From contig CAMBBO010000007.1 of assembly GCA_945862935.1 (NCBI GenBank), positions 1 to 32,194 of the forward strand: 32,194 nucleotides of DNA. Reading direction: 5' to 3'. The position numbers and the translations under genes are program-made. Shown here one piece after another: positions 141 to 27,554 of the stretch (the stretch's first letter is position 1; each line of letters opens with the position of its first letter). The notes under the pieces are model-generated. The model was not told where the DNA came from. It saw only the letters and a list, made by a program, of their open reading frames with translations, and searched no databases. The DNA is from Pseudorhodoplanes sinuspersici. GTDB taxonomy: Bacteria > Pseudomonadota > Alphaproteobacteria > Rhizobiales > Xanthobacteraceae.

Positions 141-815
141 TCAGGCCGCACGCTCAAGTTTACGAACGACAACGATTCTGGCGGCCGGATCGGTCTTGCT
201 GGGCGTCAGATCGTACTGAACATTCCAAGATTTAGCGGCTGCGGTCAGTTCAGCCTCAACATCTTGGCCCTTCGGAAATAAGCCTACCACGCCTGACTTC
301 AACAGCGGAGCGGACAATTTGAGGAGCTGTGGAAGAGGGGCGAGTGCCCGCGCGGTCACGGCATCGAGTTTCCCGGCAAAATTTGCGGCGAAATTCTCGA
401 CCCGCTCGTGATGCACGGTCGCCGGCACGCCGGTGATGCCGATGGCTTCGCGCAGGAAGGCTGCTTTCTTGCCGGTCGATTCCACAAGATGCACATGCGC
501 GCCCGGACGGCCTTTCAGCGCGCACGCGATCACGAGTCCGGGGAAGCCAGCACCCGATCCAAGATCGGCAAACACCCGCGCGTCCGGGGCGAGGGGGAGA
601 AGCTGCAGCGAGTCGCTGACATGCCGCGTCCAGACAAGAGGAAGCGTAGAACTCGCGACGAGGTTGGTCGTTCGCTGCCAGAGGAAAAGCAGTTCGACGA
701 GTTCTTCGAGCCCGTTCTGCGTTTCACGTGAAACAGGCGTGAGCGACAGCGCGCGCGCCTTATCGGCTTCGAGCGCTTTTGAATCGGGAATGTCCGCAGA
801 ACGCTCGGCGCTCAT
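141..815 (-). CDS. rsmG: 16S rRNA (guanine527-N7)-methyltransferase RsmG (GidB)
   Basis: 224 aa with SAM-binding motif [16 protein letters not shown] and [13 protein letters not shown]. Start overlaps the mnmG stop (ATGA). Confidence 0.95.
720..735. promoter_or_regulatory. parS: parS centromere site (ParB binding), inside the 5' part of rsmG
   Basis: CGTTTCACGTGAAACA matches 15/16 of the consensus TGTTTCACGTGAAACA; the 14-bp core GTTTCACGTGAAAC is a perfect palindrome. Confidence 0.9.
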
Positions 816-2674
816 CGCTGTGCCGTACGGCCTTTTCGGCGCAGATGCGCGGCCACCAGCGTCAAAGCCGCAGGCGTTATTCCGTCGATGCGGCCTGCCT
901 GACCGATGGTGCGCGGGCGATGCTGCGAAAGTTTCTGCCGTGCTTCGTTCGAAAGGCCGGGCAGGGTGGCGTAATCGAGCTCATCCGGCAGCGCGAAGCT
1001 CTCATCGCGCCGATACGTTTCAACGTCCGACGCCTGACGCGACAGATAGACGTCATAGACCGCGTCGATCTTCACTTGCTCTGCGATGGTCTGCGGCCAC
1101 TCGCGCATCTGCGGCCACACGGACGCGAGCTGATCGATTTCGATATTGGCGTAGGAGAGCAATTCAAACGCCGTGCGGCGATGCCCGTCCTTCTTCAACG
1201 CGAGGCCATGCTTCTCCGCTTCGTTCGGCGACAACGAAACCGATTTCGCGAAGATCCGCGCGGCATTCAGCGCCACCATCTTCGCCTGATGATGCTCACG
1301 GCGTTGCGTGCCGACGCATCCAATCGCGATGCCACGATCCGTGAGCCGCTGATCCGCGTTATCGGCCCGCAAAGCGAGGCGATATTCCGCGCGTGAAGTG
1401 AACATGCGATACGGCTCGGTGACACCGCGGGTCACCAGATCGTCGATCATCACGCCAAGATAGCCTTCCGCGCGATCGAAGATAATCGGCGCAGAACCAC
1501 CGGCTTTCGCGGCCGCATTCAAGCCCGCAACAAGCCCCTGCGCGCCTGCTTCCTCATAGCCCGTGGTGCCATTGATCTGGCCCGCGAGATAAAGCCCTTC
1601 GACCTTGCGCGTCTCCAGCGTCGCATTCAGTTCGCGCGGATCGACATGGTCGTATTCGATCGCGTAGCCGGGCCGCACCATGACGGCCTTTTCCAGTCCA
1701 GGAATCGACGCGACCACCGCAAGCTGCACATCCTTCGGCAGTGACGTGGAAATGCCGTTCGGATAAACGGTCGGATCATCCAAACCTTCCGGCTCAAGAA
1801 AAATCTGATGCCCGTCGCGCTCACCGAAGCGCACGATCTTGTCTTCGATTGACGGGCAATAACGCGGCCCGCGGCTATCGATTTGCCCCGAATACATCGG
1901 CGAGCGATGCACGTTGGCGCGAATGATCTCGTGCGTTGCGTCGGTGGTGCGGGTGATGCCGCATTCGACCTGCGGCGTGTCGATACGCGCGGTCAGCATC
2001 GAGAAGGGTTCGGGCGGCGTGTCGCCCGGCTGCATTTGAAGCGCGGCCCAATCAATAGTGCGGCCGTCTAGACGCGGAGGCGTGCCGGTCTTCAATCGGC
2101 CAAGCGCAATGCCGAGACGCTCAAGCGTGATAGCCAATCCAATCGCTGGCGCTTCACCGACACGGCCCGCTGGCGTTTTCTCTTCGCCGATATGGATGAG
2201 ACCGCGAAGGAAAGTACCGGTGGTGAGCACGACGGCGCCGCACGAAAGCTCGCGGCCATCGGCGAGGCGCAATGCACTGACACGCCCATCGCTAATGACG
2301 ATGTCGTCGGCTTCGCCTTCGACAACGCTCAGGTTCGCAGTCTCGCCGATCGCTTGCTGGATCGCCGCTGCATAGAGCTTGCGATCTGCCTGCGCGCGCG
2401 GTCCGCGCACGGCGGGCCCCTTGCGGCGATTGAGAACGCGAAACTGGATGCCGCCTTTGTCCGCAGCGCGCGCCATCAGCCCATCAAGCGCATCGATTTC
2501 GCGAACGAGATGGCCTTTGCCCAGTCCGCCAATCGCAGGATTGCATGACATCGCGCCGACAGTGTCGAAGCGATGCGTGACAAGCGCAGTTCTCGCGCCC
2601 ATGCGTGCGGAAGCCGCTGCGGCTTCAGTGCCAGCGTGCCCGCCCCCCACAATGATGACGTCAAAATCGGCCAT
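812..2674 (-). CDS. mnmG: tRNA uridine-5-carboxymethylaminomethyl synthesis enzyme MnmG (GidA)
   Basis: 620 aa; [19 protein letters not shown]-binding motif, [39 protein letters not shown]. Confidence 0.98.
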
Positions 2675-2770
2675 GTGATCTCTCGGGCCGGGTTCTAAAG
2701 CAGAAGCGCGGCCGTGAAAACGAATCTATTTGCGGGCTTTTTGAGTCGACGGATTCAAAGCCGGCGCGCG

Positions 2771-2786
2771 CGTTTCACGTGAAACA
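2771..2786. promoter_or_regulatory. parS: parS centromere site in the mnmG-mnmE intergenic region
   Basis: CGTTTCACGTGAAACA, identical to the site at 720-735. Confidence 0.9.
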
Positions 2787-2798
2787 CCAGCGGCCCAA

Positions 2799-2836
2799 AT
2801 GGTTAACGCCGGCGGCCTTTACCTCGCGTTAACCAT
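2799..2836. repeat. Inverted repeat ATGGTTAACGC-N16-GCGTTAACCAT
   Basis: Perfect 11-bp arms at 2799-2809 and 2826-2836, just 3' of the mnmE stop. Confidence 0.8.
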
Positions 2837-2841
2837 AAAGA

Positions 2842-4158
2842 TCATTTTCCGATACAGAAGTCGCGGAAGATCACGTCGAGGATGTCCTCGACATCAACGC
2901 GGCCGGTGAGACGGCCCAGCGCATAAGCCGCCGCGCGCAGTTCCTCCGCCAGAATGTCCTCACCTTGTGCATCTCGCGCACGGCGCAGCGCGTCCGCACA
3001 GTCATCAAGCAAACGCCGCTGGCGTTCGCGCGTCACCAATGCGGGTTCGCGCGTGCCGAATGTCTCTTGAGCGAATTGCGTCAGCGCCTTGAGCAGATCA
3101 TCGACCCCAGCGCCTGTAGTTGCCGAGATCGCAAAAGACTTTTCGCCCCGCGTCTCGGCAGCCCGCGCGCCCGGGAGATCAATCTTGTTGCGGACGTGCC
3201 AGGCGTTCGGTGTCTTCGATGCTGGCGCGTCGCCTTCATCGACCCATAACACAAGGTCGGCCTCCGCTGCCCGGGCTTTCGCGCGCGCGACGCCTTCGCG
3301 CTCGACCGGATCGTCCGTCTCCCGAATGCCCGCCGTGTCGAGCAGCGTCACCGGATAGCCGCCAAGATCGAGATGCACTTCGATCACGTCGCGCGTCGTT
3401 CCGGCATGTGGCGATACGATTGCCGCCTCGCGCCGCGCGATGCGATTGAGCAAAGTCGACTTGCCCGCATTCGGCGGCCCGGCAATCGCAATCACCAGAC
3501 CTTCACGCAACCGCTCGCCGCGCTTTGCGTCCGCCAGCGCGCTTTCGATTTCGGTAGCGAGCTCGCGGACAGCAATGAGCGCGCGCGCCGTGACATCGCT
3601 CGCGACGTCGGCCTCATCGGAGAAATCAATTCCCGCTTCGACCAGCGCCATCGCTTCGACCAGACGCTTGCGCCATCCTTCCGCGCGATTGCCGAGCAAT
3701 CCCGCCAGCTGACGAAACGCCTGCCGCCGCTGCGCTTCGGTTTCCGCATAAATGAGATCGGCAAGCCCTTCAATCCGGGTCAGATCGAGCTTGCCGTTCT
3801 CGAATGCGCGGCGCGTGAATTCGCCGGGTTCTGCCGGACGCAAACCTTCAAGCTGCGCGAGCGCTGCAAAGGTCGCTGCGATCACCGCGCGCCCGCCATG
3901 AATTTGCAGTTCGACGACATCCTCGCCAGTCTCGCTCGACGGCGCTTTGAAAAACAATGCGAGCGCCTCGTCGATGATCTCGCCCGATTGCGGATCGCGG
4001 ACGCGGGCGAACGCGGCATTGCGCGGCTCTGGAATTTTTCCGGTGAGCGCCTTCAGCGCGTCTCGCGCGCGCGGACCCGAAATGCGGATGACCCCAATCG
4101 CCGCCGGGGGATGGCCGGACGACAGCGCGAAGATCGTATCGCCGCGTGAGGATCTCAT
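2842..4158 (-). CDS. mnmE: tRNA uridine-5-carboxymethylaminomethyl synthesis GTPase MnmE (TrmE)
   Basis: G1 motif [13 protein letters not shown]3 DTAGIRET, N-terminus [23 protein letters not shown]-terminus CIGK. Start chosen at [10 protein letters not shown]; the ORF extends to 4215. Confidence 0.96.
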
Positions 4159-4264
4159 GATGCGCGCACCGAACGCGGCGAACTGGCGCCGGTCAAGAGC
4201 GGACATCGCGGGCATTTGTTCGCTCCATCTGCGGGTATGTTTTTATTCCTATCCCTCCCCCAAT

Positions 4265-4293
4265 GAAAAACCCGGCACCAAGGCCGGGTTTCC
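4265..4293 (-). terminator. Rho-independent terminator of the cold-shock gene
   Basis: AAACCCGGC-ACCAAG-GCCGGGTTT (4268-4291); on the minus strand the hairpin is followed by a T-rich tract (TTTTTC). Lies between the csp stop and the mnmE start. Confidence 0.75.
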
Positions 4294-4349
4294 CATTCCG
4301 TATCGCTTTCTACTGCCGTCTCGAGTGCGGCAGCGATTGCTGATCCGAC

Positions 4350-4565
4350 TTACTTCACCTTGAGGTTTTCAGCCGATTCCTTGCCGCGGTTCGCGACGAC
4401 TTCGTACTCGATCTGCTGGCCTTCATTGAGGTTGCTCAAACCGGCGCGCTCGACAGCCGAGATGTGCACGAACACATCTTTGCCGCCGCCTTGCGGCTGG
4501 ATGAAGCCGTAACCCTTAGTCGCGTTGAACCACTTAACAGTGCCTGTAGCCACATTAGTCTCCAA
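4350..4565 (-). CDS. Cold-shock protein, CspA family
   Basis: 71 aa: [36 protein letters not shown] contains the RNP1 (KGYGFI) and RNP2 (VFVHIS) motifs. Confidence 0.96.
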
Positions 4566-4762
4566 GTCGATTGTAGTAGATGCTTCGCCGACACAACGAG
4601 CGTCGGACTGACATCTCGCAGAGGGACGAGTATTTGATACCGAATATACGGCCTTCGCGCCATCCTAGGCCGCGATTTATTGTTACGGCCCCGTTTCACC
4701 GAGCCCGCGCGTTAGATCGATACAGGTGATCCTACGCTCGCCCTCTAACGTGCTGAGATTCC

Positions 4763-6801
<2,039 letters not shown>

Positions 6802-6805
<4 letters not shown>

Positions 6806-9123
6806 GCCGCGTCGTTCGCGCGTTGCTTTTTGAGCCAGGGGCTCCAAGGCTCCGGCGGCACAAGGCCCGCGCTTTCCCAAACTGGAAGAATCCGTCCGTC
6901 TGCGGTCATTCGGCCGACAAACGCTGGCTTGTGCAGGTGGTGGTTGCTCGCATCCATTCGTACCAGATGCCCGCTTGGTGAGGATGCTTCAAGACCGGCC
7001 AGCGCTGCGCGCACGCTCACAGGATCGGTCGTGCCTGCGGCCTCCACCGCCTTGCACCACAGCCGGAACGCAATGAGCGTCGCTTCCATCGGATCGTTGG
7101 TCACGGCCTGCGGATCCCCAACGAACTCCCGCCATTGAGCAACAAAATCCCGATTGGCCGGATGATCGATCGCATGGAGATAAGTCCACGCTGCGAAATG
7201 CCCTTCCATCGCGACCTGCGCCAAGGGTGCCAATTCCGTTTCACCGAGCGACAGAGTCATCACGGGCAGCGTATTTGCCGACAGACCCTGCCGCGAAAAT
7301 TCACGAAAGAAATGCACGTTCAAATCGCCACTCAGCGTGGACACAATCGCAGCATCGCCGCTTGCGCCGAACCGGCGCATGGCCTCAACCGTCTCGCGCC
7401 AAACCTTTTCGCCAAACGGCACATAGAACTCGACGACAGCATCGCCGCCGATCCCGCGCGACGCCAGATAGGATTTAACGATTGCGTTTGTCGTGCGCGG
7501 ATAGACGTAATCCGTACCGATCAGAAAGAATTTCCGGCGCCCCTGCGCCAGCAGATAATTGATCGCGGGCAACGCCTGCTGTTGCGGCGTTGCGCCCGAA
7601 TAGAAAACATGCGGCGACTGCTCCTCGCCTTCGTACTGGCTCGGATAGAACATCAGCGCGTCATGCCGCGCGAGCACGTGAAGAACCTGCTGGCGCGAAG
7701 CAGACGTCCAACATCCAAAAACCGCAGCGACTCCATTCTCGGACAGCATCGTTTCGCAAAGTTCTTCGTAACGCGCAGGCTTTGATCCGGGATCGAAAAT
7801 GACCGCCTCGACGGGACGGCGCAGCAATCCACCGACTTCGTTCAATTGCTCGATCAGCATGATCAGCAATTGCTGTAACGGCCGCTCGCTCGCTGTCAGC
7901 GTGCCCGTCAGCGAATGCAGGATGCCGACCTTGATCGCGCCGGACTCCAATTCTGAGAAATAGCGGCGCACCGAACTAACCAGCGACCGCGAACGCACCG
8001 CAAGGTCGTCAGCCGTGGCAAGTACGCCTTCGCCCGCATGCGCGACATCGGCAATGGCCGACTGGATTTCCGGCAGCGCTCGTCCGACGCCTTCGGCAAC
8101 GTTGCTCGCCTCATCGCCGATGTGATCGAGCTCTGCGAGCTGCTGTTCGAGCATCACATTGAGATCGCGATTCATCTCGCTCGTGGCATCGACGCTCGAC
8201 GACACGGCAGCAATGGCAGAGGCGGTTTCCTGCACCGCCGATTGGATACCGAGGATCTGCCCGCGGATTTCGCCGGTCGCCTCCGCGGTCTGGGTGGCGA
8301 GCTGTTTAACTTCGCTCGCAACCACCGCAAAGCCGCGCCCGGCCTGACCCGCGCGCGCCGCTTCGATTGTCGCATTCAATGCCAGCAGCGAGGTCTGTCC
8401 GGCAATATTTTGAATCAGCTTGATGACCACGTCGATGCGTTGTGCTGCTTCCGAAAGCGAGCGAACCGTACCGTCGGCGTGTTTCAATTCCTTGGTGGTG
8501 CGATCCGTGGCCGCGCGCGCCGCGTTGACCTGAAGGCCCGACTGGACGACGACTTCGCGAACCTGACGCGCCGCCGCAGCCACACTGGCGGCATTCCCGG
8601 CCGCCTCTTCGGCGGTTTGCGCTGCGTGCGATACCTTTAGGGTCATGTCACTGTTGCGTTCGGCCAATGCGGATGCCGTCACGCGAATCTTTTCCCCGGC
8701 CACAGTGAATGCGGCGACGATGTCGTCGATGGCGGTCTGAAACCGTTTGGTGATGAAAACACGGCCGGCCTGGCGCAATTTGGATTCGGTTGCGCGGCGA
8801 TCACGGTCGACGGCAACAGTTTCGGCATCCATTAAAGCGGTACGCAGTGCCTCGGCGGCTTCGCCGAATTTCTGCATGGTCCCGTCGCCAATGGCTTCCG
8901 GCAGCGAGGCATAGCGGTCGCCACGCGCGAGACGAACCAATGCCGAGACGATCCCTGCCAGCCGGTATTCAACGAACCCACCGATTGCGACAGCACCGAC
9001 AGCACCTGCCGCTAGACCGGCCTGGACGCTGTCGAGTTCCGCCGCGACCAGAGACGCGACCGCGCTGACCGCAAAAGCAGGGATTGCAATCCAGAGTGCG
9101 GGCGTTCTGAAGGGATGTTTCAT
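6802..9123 (-). CDS. Methyl-accepting chemotaxis-type receptor fused to a C-terminal UrtA/AmiC-like urea/amide-binding domain
   Basis: N-terminal two hydrophobic helices, then an MCP signalling tip ([37 protein letters not shown]), then a UrtA-like domain ([96 protein letters not shown]). Start chosen at MKHPFRTP; the ORF extends to 9222. Confidence 0.93.
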
Positions 9124-9263
9124 GATCGGCGGCAATAGCGTGACGGATTCTAACGCATTGCAGCGATTCGTATTGCCAAAGTATTTCCGCAGAGATTCAC
9201 AGCGCGCATGAATTTTCAGCACAGCGACTCAAAATTGAGCGTTGCTCCGCAGATGCTTCTTGC

Positions 9264-9296
9264 AAAACAAAAAAGGCCGGAGATTTCTCTCCGGCC
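9264..9296 (-). terminator. Rho-independent terminator downstream of rho
   Basis: GGCCGGAGA-TTTC-TCTCCGGCC (9275-9296), perfect 9-bp stem; on the minus strand it is followed by TTTTTTGTTTTG. Confidence 0.88.
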
Positions 9297-9328
9297 TCCT
9301 GTGAATTGATCGCGGTTTGGTGCCGACG

Positions 9329-10594
9329 TCAGGTGTTCATCGACTCGAAGAACTCGCCGTTGGTCTTGGTGTTGCGCAGCTTGTCGAGCAAGAAGTCGAT
9401 TGCGTCCATCGTGCCCATCGGATTGAGGATACGGCGGAGGACATACATCTTCTTGAGCTGCTGCGGATCGGTGAGCAGTTCTTCCTTGCGGGTGCCAGAG
9501 CGGGTGATGTCGATGGCCGGGAAGGTGCGTTTGTCCGCCACCTTGCGGTCGAGGATGAGTTCGGAATTGCCCGTGCCCTTGAACTCTTCAAAAATCACTT
9601 CGTCCATGCGCGAGCCGGTATCGATCAGCGCGGTGGCGATAATCGTCAGCGATCCGCCTTCTTCGATGTTACGCGCCGCACCGAAGAAACGCTTCGGACG
9701 CTGCAACGCATTCGCGTCGACGCCGCCGGTCAGCACCTTGCCGGAGCTTGGAACCACCGTGTTGTAGGCGCGGCCCAGACGTGTGATCGAATCGAGAAGA
9801 ATAACGACGTCGCGGCCGTGTTCGACCAGACGTTTGGCCTTTTCGATCACCATTTCTGCCACCGCGACGTGACGTGTCGCCGGCTCGTCGAAGGTCGAGG
9901 AAACGACCTCTCCTTTCACCGAGCGTTGCATATCGGTGACTTCTTCCGGCCGTTCGTCGATCAGAAGAACGATCAGATAGCATTCCGGGTGATTGGCAGT
10001 GATCGCGTGCGCGACGTTCTGCAGCAGCACGGTTTTGCCCGTACGCGGTGGCGAAACGATCAACGCGCGCTGGCCTTTTCCGATCGGCGCGACGATGTCG
10101 ATCACACGGGCCGACAAATCCTTCTTGGTCGGATCGTCATGCTCCATGCGCAGCCGCTCGGTCGGATACAGCGGTGTCAGGTTGTCGAAGTTGATCTTGT
10201 GGCGCGCCTTGTCGGGGTCTTCGAAATTGATCGTGTTGACCTTGAGCAGCGCGAAGTAACGCTCACCTTCCTTCGGTGAACGAATGTGGCCCTCGACGGT
10301 ATCGCCAGTCCGCAAACCGAAGCGGCGAATCTGCGAAGGCGAAACGTAGATGTCGTCGGGGCCAGGCAAATAGTTTGCTTCTGGCGAGCGCAAAAAGCCG
10401 AAGCCGTCGGAGAGTACCTCCACGACGCCTTCGCCGATGATGTCGATCTCTTTGTTCGCAAGCTGCTTCAGGATCGCGAACATCAGCTCCTGCTTGCGCA
10501 GCGTGCTGGCGTTTTCGATCTCATGCTCTTCGGCGAATGACAGAAGTTCGACAGGAGTCTTGGATTTCAAATCTTGAAGTTTCACTTCCCGCAT
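9329..10594 (-). CDS. rho: Transcription termination factor Rho
   Basis: 421 aa; [26 protein letters not shown] Walker [36 protein letters not shown]. Confidence 0.99.
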
Positions 10595-10829
10595 GGGGAT
10601 TCCTTGAAAGATGGACCGGCGGCGTGAGGTGGGATTACGGAGGCCGCAGCGGTACGAGAGATCGCAGGTTTTAGGGAGGAGGAGGTCCGGCCCGATGCTG
10701 GGCGGTCCGAATACTCCGGAGCCGCGCCTTGACTACATCCGCCTGCGTTCGGAGAGATGCACACAACATACGGAACAAAACGGCATTTCGCAAGGGCTGC
10801 GTTGCGCCGCACACAACGAAAGCCCGCCG

Positions 10830-11252
10830 CTAGAAGGGTTTTACCACAGCCAAAATCACAATCGCTATCATCAGCACGGTCGGTATCTCGTTGGCCAGCC
10901 GATAGAATCTGGCCGGCCTCGTATTACGGTCAGCGGCGAAATCTTTCATCCAGCGCATGTAGAAACCATGCAAAGCCGACATCGCCAGAACGAGGGCGAA
11001 CTTGGCGTGAAACCATCCCGCCTTGTGCCACCCGCCCTGCCACACAAGCCAAAGCCCAAGCAGCCATGTCGCGATCATCGCCGGATTGATGATGAAACGA
11101 AGAAGCCTCCGCTCCATGACTTTGAATGTTTCGGACTGCACAGAACCCGGCGCAGCGCTGCAATGATAGACGAACAGCCGCGGCAAATAGAGCATTCCCG
11201 CCATCCACGAGATGACGGCGATAAGATGAAATGTCTTTAGCCAAAGATACAT
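10830..11252 (-). CDS. hemJ: Protoporphyrinogen oxidase HemJ (CopD-like membrane protein)
   Basis: 140 aa membrane protein; LWLKTFHLIAVISWMAGMLYLPRLFVYHC, VMERRLLRFIINPAM, WFHAKFALVLAMSALHG. Confidence 0.92.
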   Translation of the reverse strand: MYLWLKTFHLIAVISWMAGMLYLPRLFVYHCSAAPGSVQSETFKVMERRLLRFIINPAMIATWLLGLWLVWQGGWHKAGWFHAKFALVLAMSALHGFYMRWMKDFAADRNTRPARFYRLANEIPTVLMIAIVILAVVKPF

Positions 11253-11722
11253 TTTCGGTTTCCGCGCGCCAACTTACACCTGAGCGGAAACCATTTGTCG
11301 AGCTATGTGTTTTCGAATCGAGCGATTGCGAGTTCTATACACAGGCTCAGGCCGTAGCGAGGGCCGTCCCAAATCTAATCTAAGATTCTTAATTGTAGTG
11401 ACTCCTTGTCTGTCGATTAGACTCACGCTTTCTCATTCACATGTTACCGATCATTTCCCCACATATCCCCGATCTTAGAAAGATGGTATTTGGAGCCGCG
11501 CTTCCAAATGACGCGTTGTGATTGAACGAGAAACAAAGCGTTCCGCACAATCCATCCAGTTTTTATGAACAAACCTCACTTTCCGGAATCGAGTCGCCCT
11601 GATTTCTTCAGCAGGGCACGTGTGTGGACGGCCAAGCAGGTTTTCAGCCCTTGAGGCTTGCACTTGCTCAAAACCCGTGGCCTCCTCCCCAGGCGTCCCC
11701 GACTTGTCCTGTGGATTGACGC
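11253..11722. other. oriC: Candidate chromosomal replication origin (oriC) in the hemJ/ppsR divergent intergenic region
   Basis: Long divergent intergenic region (470 bp) at the switch from minus-strand to plus-strand genes. DnaA-box-like 9-mers: CTATACACA (11335-11343), TCATTCACA (11433-11441), TTCCCCACA (11455-11463), minus-strand TCAATCACA (11517-11525) and CAATCCACA (11710-11718). AT-rich stretch 11371-11400. Six GANTC sites. Neighbourhood matches the conserved alphaproteobacterial origin locus next to the RP001/DUF299 gene. Confidence 0.55.
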
Positions 11723-12565
11723 ATGCCGCAGCGAAGCCCGAGTTACTTTCACCTGCATCTCGTTTCGGATTCGACCGGCGAGACATTGACCATGGTTGCG
11801 CGCGCGGCTGCGGCGCAATATGCAACTGTGTCCCCGATCGAGCATCTTTACCCGTTGATCCGCACCGCTCGTCAATTAGACCGCGTGCTCAGCGATATTG
11901 AAAATGCGCCCGGCATCGTTCTTTACACGCTGCTCGAAAGCGATATCGCGACCGCGCTGGAAGAAAAATGCAAGGTTCTCGGACTTCCATGCATGTCTGT
12001 ACTTGGGCCCGTCCTCGGCTTGTTTCAGTCCTATCTTGGAACTGGGACAACACGCCCGCGTGTCGGCGCACAGCACATGTTGAATGCGGAATATTTCAAA
12101 CGCATCGACGCGCTCAACTTCACGATGATGCACGATGACGGGCAACACACAGATAATCTCGAGGAGGCCGACGTCGTGCTTGTTGGAATTTCACGCACGT
12201 CGAAAACCCCAACAGCGATTTATCTGGCAAATCGTGGCGTCAAAACGGGAAACATTCCGCTTGTTCCGGGCGTCCCTTTGCCGTCACATCTCGACGGTTT
12301 GCAGAATCCGTTGGTCGTCGGTCTATTCGCAAGTCCTGAGCGAATTGTGGCCATTCGCCAGAACAGACTACTCGGGCTCAATGCCCATCGTGATGACGAT
12401 CAGTATATCGACCGTCAGGCGGTAGCTGAGGAAGTCACGATTTCCCGCAAACTGTACGCCAAGCACAACTGGCCATCGATCGATGTCACGCGGCGATCCA
12501 TCGAGGAAACGGCCGCTGCCGTCATAGCGTTGTTGGCGGAGCGCCGGCGGATTCCCGTGGCATGA
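11723..12565 (+). CDS. ppsR: Pyruvate, phosphate dikinase / PEP synthase regulatory kinase-phosphotransferase (DUF299, PDRP family)
   Basis: 280 aa; [50 protein letters not shown]. Confidence 0.95.
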
Positions 12566-13173
12566 GCGCGCTCTGGCTTTCTGACAAACCGCTTGTGCTG
12601 GCCTCGAAATCTATGGTCCGGCGCACAATGATCGAGGCTGCGGGAATTCCGGTCGAAGTTCATGTCGCCGAGATCGATGAGCGGGCAGTTGAGGCGCAGG
12701 CAGGTGCGGAAACGCCCGAAGACGTCGCGCTGATGCTCGCGCAGCGAAAAGCAGAAGCTGTTTCCAAAATCGTGCCGGGGCGGCTTGTGGTCGGGGCGGA
12801 TCAAACGCTGGCTGCTGGCCGAACCCGTTTTACCAAGCCGACAGACCGTGCATCGGCGCGGCGGCAATTACAGGAACTTCGCGGAAAGCCGCACCAGCTT
12901 CATTCCGGCGTCGCACTCGCGCGCGATGGAAAGGTGATTTATGCCGTCTGCGATTCCGCGCGTCTTGTGATGCGAAATTTTAGCGAGGAATTTCTCGATA
13001 GCTATCTCGATGCTGCCGGTGCAAGTGTTTGCGATAGTGTCGGCGGATATCAGCTCGAGCGAGTCGGCATCCAGCTATTTCAGGAAATAGATGGCGATCA
13101 CAACACAATTCTTGGGCTACCACTTTTTAGTTTGCTGATCGCGTTGCGCGAAGCTGGCGCGCTTAAGGACTAG
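12562..13173 (+). CDS. maf: Maf family nucleoside triphosphate pyrophosphatase
   Basis: 203 aa; [69 protein letters not shown] overlap with ppsR. Confidence 0.93.
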
Positions 13174-13174
13174 C

Positions 13175-13774
13175 ATGATTGTTCTCGGCCTCACGGGTTC
13201 TATTGGAATGGGCAAGAGCACGACCGCGCGGTTTTTCGCGGAGGAGGGCGTGCCTGTTCATGACGCCGATGCAACCGTTCACGATCTCTACCGCGGTGAA
13301 GCCGTAGCGCCTATCGAAGCCGCTTTTCCTGGGACCACGAAGGATGGAATTGTCGATCGTGATGCATTGTCGCGGAGCGTTGTTGGCAACACCGATGCGC
13401 TGAAGAAACTTGAATCCATTGTGCATCCTCTCGTGCGTGCCGCCGAGCGCCAATTTTTGGTAGATGCGGAAAAGAAACGCGCGGAAATCGTGGTTCTCGA
13501 TATTCCGCTTCTTTACGAGACCGGCGGGCTGGATCGTGTCGATGCGGTGGTTGTTGTCTCTGCGCCGCAGGGGATCCAGCGGCTTCGGGTTCTGGAACGG
13601 CCCGGCATGACCGAGGAAAAATTCCAGGCTTTGTTGACGCGCCAAGTTCCCGACGAGGAAAAGCGCCGGCAGGCCGACTTCATCGTGGATAGTGGACACG
13701 GACTAGAATCTGCACGGCAGCAGGTGCGGGATATTTTGCGGAAGGCGTCTATGATGACGCCCCGGCGGGCCTGA
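13175..13774 (+). CDS. coaE: Dephospho-CoA kinase
   Basis: 199 aa; [62 protein letters not shown]. Confidence 0.97.
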
Positions 13775-13798
13775 TTCGCACCTCACCACGAGTTCCCC

Positions 13799-14488
13799 AT
13801 GCGCGAAATTGTATTCGATACGGAAACCACCGGCCTCGATCCGCTTTCGGGCGATCGTCTTGTCGAGATCGGCTGCGTCGAGCTGCTGAACCGATTTCCG
13901 ACCGGCAAGACATTTCACCGTTACATCAATCCTCAGCGTGATATGCCGCGCGGCGCGTTCGATGTGCACGGACTTTCCGCCGAGTTCTTGAAAGGCCATC
14001 CGATCTTCGAAGCCATCGTCGATGAGTTCATCGACTTTGTCGAAGACTCGCCGTTGATCGCACATAACGCGATGTTCGATCTCGGTTTCGTCAATTTCGA
14101 ACTGGAGCGCCTCAAGCGCATCCCCATTGGCCGCGAACGGCTGATAGACACGCTAGTGCTGGCACGCCGGAAACATCCTGGAACGTCGAACAAACTCGAC
14201 GATCTGTGCGCGCGCTATCGCATCGACAATTCACGCCGCCCGAAACATGGGGCCTTGCTTGATGCTGAACTTCTCGCCGAAGTTTACGTCGAGTTGATAG
14301 GCGCGCGGCAGGCGATGCTCGGTCTCGCGCATTCGATCGACGGAATGGCTACGCGGCCGGTTGGCGGCACAGCGACGCTCCAGCGGACTGTCGCACTTAA
14401 GCCACGCCTGAGCGACGCTGAGCGCGATGCGCACGGCACATTTGTCGCGACGCTCGGCGAGAAATCGATCTGGCAGGATTATCTTTAA
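13799..14488 (+). CDS. dnaQ: DNA polymerase III epsilon subunit
   Basis: 229 aa; REIVFDTETTGLDPLSGDRLVEIGCVEL, LIAHNAMFDLGFVNFEL, KHGALLDAELLAEVYVEL (DEDDh exonuclease motifs). Confidence 0.97.
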   Translation: MREIVFDTETTGLDPLSGDRLVEIGCVELLNRFPTGKTFHRYINPQRDMPRGAFDVHGLSAEFLKGHPIFEAIVDEFIDFVEDSPLIAHNAMFDLGFVNFELERLKRIPIGRERLIDTLVLARRKHPGTSNKLDDLCARYRIDNSRRPKHGALLDAELLAEVYVELIGARQAMLGLAHSIDGMATRPVGGTATLQRTVALKPRLSDAERDAHGTFVATLGEKSIWQDYL

Positions 14489-14492
14489 GGCG

Positions 14493-14987
14493 TCAGCTCT
14501 GAATGGCTGGCTGGCCCTGCTGCTGTTCCATCCGCTGACGGAATAGCGAGACGAAGTCGACCGGATCAAGAAGCAGCGGCGGGAAGCCGCCATTGCGCAC
14601 CGCGGTCGCGATGATCTCCCGCGCGAACGGGAACAGGATGCGCGGACATTCGATCATGACCAGCGGCAGCATGTTGTCCTGCGGAACGTTCTGGATCCGG
14701 AACACGCCGGCATAGGTCAGGTCGAACGCGAACAGGACGCTGCCGGACACTTCGGCCTTACCGTCAATCTTCAGCACGACCTCAATATCCGTCTCGGTCA
14801 GAGGCTGGGCGTTGACGTTGATCTGGATATTAATCGCAGGTTGCTTTTGCTCCTGCATGGATTGCGGCGCGTTCGGGTTTTCGAACGACAGATCCTTGAC
14901 GTATTGTGCGAGGACATTGAGCACCGGCTGCGGAGCATTCGCAGCTGCGGGGTCGGCCGCCTGGCCGCCAATGCTAGAATTCGCCAT
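14493..14987 (-). CDS. secB: Protein-export chaperone SecB
   Basis: 164 aa; [87 protein letters not shown]. Confidence 0.97.
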
Positions 14988-15261
14988 GAATGTCCCTCAG
15001 GTGGCTCACGGGAGCCGTCGCGGCGGTGTGGCTAACATACGGTTTCCGGGCGAACAAGGATCGGCGCCCCAAGGTCGGATTGGGGCAAGATCGTGGTCGA
15101 AGACCGCCACAGAGCGCCCGGATGCGACTTAATGCGTCTCTCCAGCGTGGGCGGAGCCCTCTCTCGCCGTTGGCGTCTGGGGTCTTAATCGTTTAGGGTT
15201 CTTTTAGGCCAAGGATCGGATCGTCGCAGCCTATGGATTGGCGACGCGAGATGCCTAGTTA

Positions 15262-26256: not shown

Positions 26257-26330
26257 CTCGTCACCTGTTTCGTTGCTTAGCGTGTCTGGCACGCAACGTG
26301 CTTGGAATTAGCTCTCACGGGAGTGATCGC

Positions 26331-27554
26331 GTGCCTACGATAAACCCGGAACGTCTGCTTGGCGACCTCTATGCGCTCCGCAAGATCGGCAACTACAAGA
26401 CGGGCGTGCATCGTCCGACACTATCACCGGACGACGTGAAAGCGCGTCAATGGCTCGCCGGGCGCATGACCGACACCGGATTGGCGCCGACCATCGATGG
26501 CATCGGCAATGTGTTCGGAAAGTGTGCCGCATCGGGGCGCAAAATTCTTGCGGGCTCGCATATCGAAAGCCAGAATCACGCTGGGTGGTTGGACGGCGCC
26601 CTCGGCGTTCTGTTTGCGCTTGAGGCATCGCGCGCGATTTCGGAAGACAAGGCGCTGAAGAATGCCGGCGTCGATGTCATCGCGTTCTGCGACGAGGAAG
26701 GCCATTTCGGCAGTTATCTCGGCAGCCGCTCCTTTATCGGCGATGTGACGGAAGACGAGATCGACAAGGCCAAGGATCGCACGCACGGGAGGCCGATGCG
26801 GGCCGCGCTTGCTGAAGCAGACTATGCAGGACGTCCGCGCCTTCAGTTCGAGCCGGGGCGCTATGCCGGGTTCTTCGAGGCCCATATAGAGCAGGGTGCC
26901 ACACTCGAACAGTCAAAACTCAAGATCGGCGTCGTTACCGCGATCGTTGGATTGTGGGACTACCGCATAAAGGTCGTCGGACAACAAAACCACGCTGGCA
27001 CGACAACGATGAAGCAGCGCCGCGACGCTGGCATGACCATGATCCGCCTGATGTCGGCCTTCGATCAGCATATGAAAAAGAACACCACCCCGCGCACGGT
27101 ATGGACCTGCGGTAAGATGGAATTCGATCCCGGCGCACCGAGCATTATTCCCGGTGAAGCACGCGCGAATTTTCAGTTCCGCGATACCGATGCGGCGTTC
27201 CTGGAGAAAACCGAATCCGAACTTCTCGCGATGGCGAAACAAGCGGACCAAGAAGGACCGTGTCAGGTCAGCGTCGAGGTTGTCCGGCAAAGTTCGCCCG
27301 CGCTGATGGACGAGAGTTTCCAGCAGGCGCTCGATGAGGCCGGAGAGAAACACGCCCCGAATCTTTGGACGCGCATGCCTTCAGGCGCCGGGCACGATGC
27401 GCAGCATTTGGCGCGGGTGATGCCCTCGGCAATGATGTTCGTGCCGAGCATCGGCGGCATCAGTCATCATTGGACTGAGAACACATCCGACGAAGACATA
27501 GCGCTCGGGTCGCAGGTCTTCACCGACGCGATCGCTCGAGTTCTGGCGAGGTAA
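26331..27554 (+). CDS. M20 family Zn-dependent hydrolase (N-carbamoyl-amino-acid hydrolase / allantoate amidohydrolase-like)
   Basis: GSHIESQNHAGWLDGALGVLFALEA, FCDEEGHFGSYLGSRSFIG, FEAHIEQGATLEQSKLKIGVVTAIVG, NHAGTTTMKQRRDAG, MPSGAGHDAQHLA. GTG start at 26331 preceded by a GGAG-type SD. Confidence 0.92.
   Translation: MPTINPERLLGDLYALRKIGNYKTGVHRPTLSPDDVKARQWLAGRMTDTGLAPTIDGIGNVFGKCAASGRKILAGSHIESQNHAGWLDGALGVLFALEASRAISEDKALKNAGVDVIAFCDEEGHFGSYLGSRSFIGDVTEDEIDKAKDRTHGRPMRAALAEADYAGRPRLQFEPGRYAGFFEAHIEQGATLEQSKLKIGVVTAIVGLWDYRIKVVGQQNHAGTTTMKQRRDAGMTMIRLMSAFDQHMKKNTTPRTVWTCGKMEFDPGAPSIIPGEARANFQFRDTDAAFLEKTESELLAMAKQADQEGPCQVSVEVVRQSSPALMDESFQQALDEAGEKHAPNLWTRMPSGAGHDAQHLARVMPSAMMFVPSIGGISHHWTENTSDEDIALGSQVFTDAIARVLAR

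Follow-up and report, generated by a model that had tools for sequence, protein, structure and literature searches.

Where in the cell, and for which compound, does a chemoreceptor sense when its ligand-binding domain is placed after the signalling domain instead of before it? The question is raised by a gene in a 32,194-nucleotide stretch of the genome assigned to Pseudorhodoplanes sinuspersici (GenBank assembly GCA_945862935.1, contig CAMBBO010000007.1, positions 1 to 32,194; hereafter the window), which encodes a methyl-accepting chemotaxis protein (MCP) with a UrtA/AmiC-type binding domain at its C terminus. The open reading frame (ORF) is single and unbroken, running on the minus strand from an ATG at 9123 to a stop codon that ends at 6802, and specifies 773 amino acids. 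From the architecture, conservation, predicted fold, largely kept pocket and genomic che cluster described below, we infer the membrane topology, ligand, coupling and behavioural output of what is probably a membrane-anchored chemoreceptor sensing a small urea- or amide-type compound within the cytoplasm. The features of the gene, in window coordinates, are as follows.

6802..9123, minus strand: fusion chemoreceptor gene, 773 codons plus stop.
9043..9099, minus strand: transmembrane helix 1, residues 9-27, from hydropathy (model helix 10-29).
8971..9027, minus strand: transmembrane helix 2, residues 33-51, about five residues past the first, from hydropathy (model helix 33-66).
8824..8970, minus strand: putative HAMP-like stretch, residues 52-100, with a conserved GDRYxxLP connector; helix-loop-helix in the model.
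8047..8523, minus strand: MCP signalling domain, residues 201-359 (PF00015).
8305..8403, minus strand: hairpin tip, residues 241-273, the region contacting CheA and CheW in known MCPs and the most conserved stretch of the protein.
7936..7956, minus strand: short linker, residues 390-396, from the last MCP helix to strand 1 of the binding domain in the model.
6835..7935, minus strand: UrtA/AmiC-type ligand-binding domain, residues 397-763 (PF13433; fold match to UrtA 8tg1).
7630..7710, minus strand: first-lobe pocket residues W472, S474, Y493, Q496 and E498, the same as the published UrtA contacts (PMC10392092).
7330..7332, minus strand: Ser598, replacing the urea-coordinating Asn246 of UrtA, from alignment to UrtA.

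Pfam searches placed MCPsignal (PF00015) at residues 201-359 (E 1e-27, 97.4 bits versus a cut-off of 34.6) and Peripla_BP_5 (PF13433) at residues 397-763 (E 5e-127). Hydropathy analysis gave two hydrophobic segments only, 9-27 and 33-51, with no transmembrane segment after residue 51, i.e. before the binding domain, in this protein or in its intact homologues. Because the MCP part must meet CheA in the cytoplasm and neither a transmembrane nor a signal segment precedes the binding domain, a cytoplasmic location of the latter is supported, the topology being deduced from the missing segment. Directly after the second helix, the HAMP-like stretch holds G68, D69, R70 and P75 invariant across 31 homologues, and no Pfam HAMP match was listed among 17 members at E values up to 5.

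An AlphaFold2 model, built from 31 sequences (the window protein and fetched relatives), contains helices at 10-29 and 33-66, a loop at 67-81, a long coiled hairpin from 82 to 389 that turns at about 258-262, and a two-lobed fold from 397. The binding domain is well modelled (block pLDDT mostly 76-94), and the best solved structural matches of the model are UrtA 8tg1 (target TM-score 0.90) and AmiC (0.88), in answer to the comparison with these two proteins that an earlier reading of the sequence alone had put forward. That sequence-only reading had also proposed one uninterrupted frame, two close N-terminal hydrophobic segments, an MCP hairpin followed by a full periplasmic-binding-protein fold, an inverted domain order with nothing membrane-spanning in between, a binding domain in the cytoplasm and a C terminus free of a CheR/CheB-tethering pentapeptide. 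Pfam order, hydropathy and model bear out the layout and are consistent with the predicted location, and inspection of the sequence confirmed that the pentapeptide is absent from the C terminus.

The fusion is neither restricted to this genome nor accidental. A survey of one genome per species across 84,980 species, with the best 80 loci kept, found the fusion signature in 38 of these (L056-L093), beyond which similarity falls steeply. Thirty of the 38 encode an intact protein of about the length of the window protein; the remaining eight include one with a long upstream extension, the others being cut by contig ends or broken. A frameshift product, a chimera or a split ORF was therefore ruled out, as the full-length layout recurs in 30 intact homologues. 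All hosts are Hyphomicrobiales, comprising Pseudorhodoplanes, Pseudolabrys, Methyloligella, Methyloceanibacter, Beijerinckia sp. L45 and further Xanthobacteraceae and Rhizobiales/Hyphomicrobiales. Within the family of the source genome, 20 of 200 sampled genomes, from 6 of 47 genera, match at E 1e-120 or better, and three genomes beyond the source genome carry matches in an order-wide sample searched at a strict limit. The dN/dS values of close pairs, approximately 0.03-0.14 in both main domains, denote purifying selection, so the gene is maintained, and the MCP tip is the most conserved part of the homologue alignment. Four broken copies, L059 (at about 9710), L076 (about 6990), L080 (about 9682) and L084 (about 2402), all fail near this tip through a frameshift, a deletion or a stop. 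Since the tip is nearly identical between paralogous MCPs, these breaks are likely to reflect assembly error or recombination between paralogues.

What the domain binds was approached through its pocket. In the urea-bound structure of Prochlorococcus UrtA, nine residues lie near the ligand, of which eight are strictly conserved (PMC10392092). Seven of the eight are unchanged in the window protein (W472, S474, Y493, Q496, E498, Y539 and S625), and the eighth, the urea-coordinating Asn246, is replaced by Ser598. Serine occupies this position in nearly all Hyphomicrobiales fusions, with Asn in L063 and L092, and Tyr190 is also changed in a minority of them, whereas Asn246 is present in all 23 UrtA orthologues examined and in nearly all more distant relatives. 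The domain is UrtA-like, but against TIGR03407, the curated UrtA family, it scores 409.6 bits, below the cut-off of 492.75. Plain UrtA was rejected as its identity, given this score, the altered pocket, the fusion to an MCP and the lack of an identified urt gene nearby. As the pocket is mostly retained with Asn246 replaced, it points to urea or a small amide as the ligand class. A cytosolic sensor of the urea/amide class is accordingly a well-supported prediction, while urea as the specific ligand is not well supported; of the earlier suggestion that the protein reports internal urea or short-chain amides, it is the class that stands.

A related arrangement was found in Azospirillum. In Azospirillum sp. 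TSH58 (L040), an MCP fusion comes after amide-type transport genes, which encode a Peripla_BP_5 protein, a permease and an ABC ATPase, and is itself followed by an acetamidase/formamidase gene; in A. argentinense (L041) a formamidase-like ORF, its identity there read from the sequence, lies directly after the fusion. The N-terminal transmembrane region of the A. argentinense fusion (L041:7482-7800) is out of frame relative to L040, which leaves L040 as the only one taken as complete. The pocket of the Azospirillum fusion, W S Y F E Y W V S, is the same as that of the neighbouring transport protein, with Val at the 246 position as in AmiC. In a tree restricted to the binding domains, proteobacterial UrtA is the neighbour of a single group (100/100) that unites the Hyphomicrobiales fusions, and the Azospirillum fusion falls with free amide-type (FmdD-like) binding proteins, also at 100/100. 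A single origin shared with Azospirillum was rejected on these separate branches, and two separate fusions are the best reading of them; the joining of an MCP to a binding domain of this kind probably arose twice. When the Azospirillum protein was used to search the whole class, free amide-binding proteins alone came back, a weak negative because no more than two candidates were scored per genome.

Binding domains of this kind are joined to other signalling proteins as well. A Ser/Thr kinase, a transmembrane segment and a UrtA-like Peripla_BP_5 domain occur in one protein at L123:8735-11170, L131:7939-10473 and L121:3-1976, in two Planctomycetota genomes and one Myxococcales genome; the pockets of L121 and L123 are altered. 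In contrast to the chemoreceptor fusion, these proteins carry the transmembrane segment immediately before the binding domain, as expected of an outward sensor, and they are possible receptor kinases for urea- or amide-like ligands.

None of the genes identified in the window is a che, urt or urease gene, in agreement with the sequence-only reading, and none is an AmiR-type neighbour; the source genome has che, urt and urease genes elsewhere. A CheW gene, a CheA-type frame with CheW domains and a CheR gene lie in one cluster on contig C43, seven other MCP matches were found in the genome, and contig C1 carries a urease gene and a partial free UrtA. CheW was found in 22 of the 23 fusion-bearing genomes; the genome without a match is 72% complete. 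With CheA-, CheW- and CheR-type genes clustered in the genome and CheW so widely retained, signalling to CheA, as proposed earlier, is plausible. A strong urease match occurs in 17 of the 23 genomes, a close free UrtA in most, and FmdA-type amidase matches, mostly weak, in eight. No single nitrogen pathway tracks the fusion across the 23, and four genomes that are 90-97% complete (G406, G425, G499 and G054) keep it while lacking both a strong urease match and a close free UrtA, although drafts may miss genes.

Around the gene, a housekeeping block at window positions 141-15000 is syntenic in many fusion-bearing genomes, and a second group places the gene in another block. The genes of the window block include what we take to be mnmG, mnmE, a DUF255 thioredoxin-like gene, rho, hemJ and ppsR. 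Further along, at 26298-27554, lies a gene for an M20 amidohydrolase of the hydantoinase/carbamoylase family, for which ureido compounds are conceivable substrates; the gene is 17 kb from the fusion, with no sign of a link.

In the mechanism that we propose, the N-terminal transmembrane hairpin would serve as an anchor only. The MCP hairpin would extend into the cytoplasm as far as its tip and then double back. Because its second arm thus ends at the membrane-proximal part of the bundle, the C-terminal domain, held on a linker of about seven residues, would sit just beneath the membrane, beside the HAMP-like stretch. With the last MCP helix ending at residue 389 and strand 1 of the binding domain starting at 397, closure of the lobes could be passed straight to the bundle: upon ligand binding, the two-lobed domain would close, the packing of the adjacent bundle region would shift, and CheA activity would be altered at the tip. 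Motility would in this way be tuned to compounds imported or made inside the cell. AmiC, a cytoplasmic amide sensor of the same fold (1pea, 1qo0), provides a precedent, and the separate Azospirillum fusion, by its amide-binding branch and its gene neighbours, also speaks for this reading.

Several observations weigh against this proposal. Besides the loss of Asn246, the coiled region of the AlphaFold2 model is poorly resolved and of low confidence, and the strict consensus for methylation sites is missing here and in nearly all homologues, with one loose site at residue 168 of the window protein. Moreover, the Hyphomicrobiales fusion gene is an orphan amid housekeeping genes in at least two different settings, showing no linkage to urea, amide or che genes and no neighbour that hints at a ligand. 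A narrower alternative is that urea itself is the compound sensed, bound in the manner of UrtA but within the cell. The seven retained pocket residues, the closest structural match, the branching next to proteobacterial UrtA and the co-occurrence of urease and free UrtA in most fusion-bearing genomes are in its favour, yet the serine at position 246 in nearly all Hyphomicrobiales fusions, where almost all free relatives have Asn, and the four genomes that retain the fusion without a strong urease match or close free UrtA speak against it, and we consider it possible but rather doubtful.

It is unlikely that the domain has lost small-molecule binding altogether and become a docking module, tying the receptor array to a cytosolic protein in the manner of AmiC on AmiR. 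AmiC does act through a protein complex (1qo0), and no conserved neighbour gene in Hyphomicrobiales indicates a ligand, but the pocket is mostly built of residues with little or no variation, which pure docking would not need, and the Azospirillum pocket is exactly that of the adjacent transport protein. A periplasmic binding domain, reached by an unusual topology, would be in keeping with the export of its relatives UrtA and FmdD; given that no membrane or signal segment separates it from the MCP part, whereas the kinase fusions do have one directly before the same domain, we regard this as highly improbable. That the fusion is a functionless relic or an assembly artefact is scarcely credible in view of the 30 intact homologues across several genera, the low dN/dS in both main domains, the 100/100 monophyly and the separate Azospirillum fusion, even though the few copies broken near the tip might suggest it. 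A cytoplasmic sensor of a urea- or amide-type compound is therefore the reading that we prefer.

Among known systems, Aer-like receptors likewise have a transmembrane anchor without a periplasmic sensor and sense internally, as is proposed here, but the Aer sensor is an N-terminal PAS-FAD domain. UrtA (8tg1, 7s6e, 8hic) shares the fold and seven of the eight strict urea-pocket residues; it is exported and free-standing, in contrast to the fused domain with its serine and its score under the UrtA cut-off. AmiC of Pseudomonas aeruginosa (1pea, 1qnl, 1qo0) has the same fold and senses amides in the cytoplasm, but it is a single-domain partner of AmiR, is about 30% identical to the fusion domain and differs at several pocket positions. 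FmdD-type short-chain amide/urea binding proteins, known from Methylophilus fmdCABDEF (PMC10781810), are free-standing transport proteins; the Azospirillum fusion domain groups with free proteins encoded beside amide-transport and formamidase genes and shares their pocket, while the domain in the window lies on the UrtA branch instead. PMC7390727 describes chemoreceptors with C-terminal sensors as a subfamily of at least 17 Pfam types that is poorly characterised and in which CZB is by far the largest. They resemble the present protein in placing the sensor after the MCP domain, and what sets it apart is its full 365-residue two-lobed UrtA/AmiC-type sensor and transmembrane-hairpin anchor, although a sensor of this type may be among the at least 17. 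A single Peripla_BP_5 sequence in one cluster, the same Pfam domain, is counted among chemoreceptor sensor domains in PMC8547431, as an entry in a table, in passages that describe neither its domain order nor its topology or function. We found no characterised MCP-UrtA or MCP-AmiC fusion in the open-access literature. The sequence-only reading, which knew of no characterised protein of this architecture, agrees with that search; the layout is not unique to the source genome, and C-terminal-sensor chemoreceptors are already a recognised class, of which the UrtA/AmiC-type fusion appears to be uncharacterised.

A broader idea, which we hold tentatively and would not press, is that, on at least two independent occasions, transport-type binding proteins for urea or small amides became attached to chemoreceptor C termini and thus moved into the cytoplasm, so that the receptors would steer by the imported pool of a nitrogen compound and not by its outside level, and that in the Hyphomicrobiales group the serine at the Asn246 position reflects a new ligand. 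In the fusion, a well-understood two-lobed fold whose urea and amide complexes have been solved is joined through a very short linker to the membrane-proximal end of an MCP bundle, which makes two questions directly testable: how CheA is controlled by a sensor attached at the C-terminal end of the bundle, and whether bacteria track the internal level of a nitrogen compound. If so, these cells would steer by what they have taken in rather than by the conditions outside.
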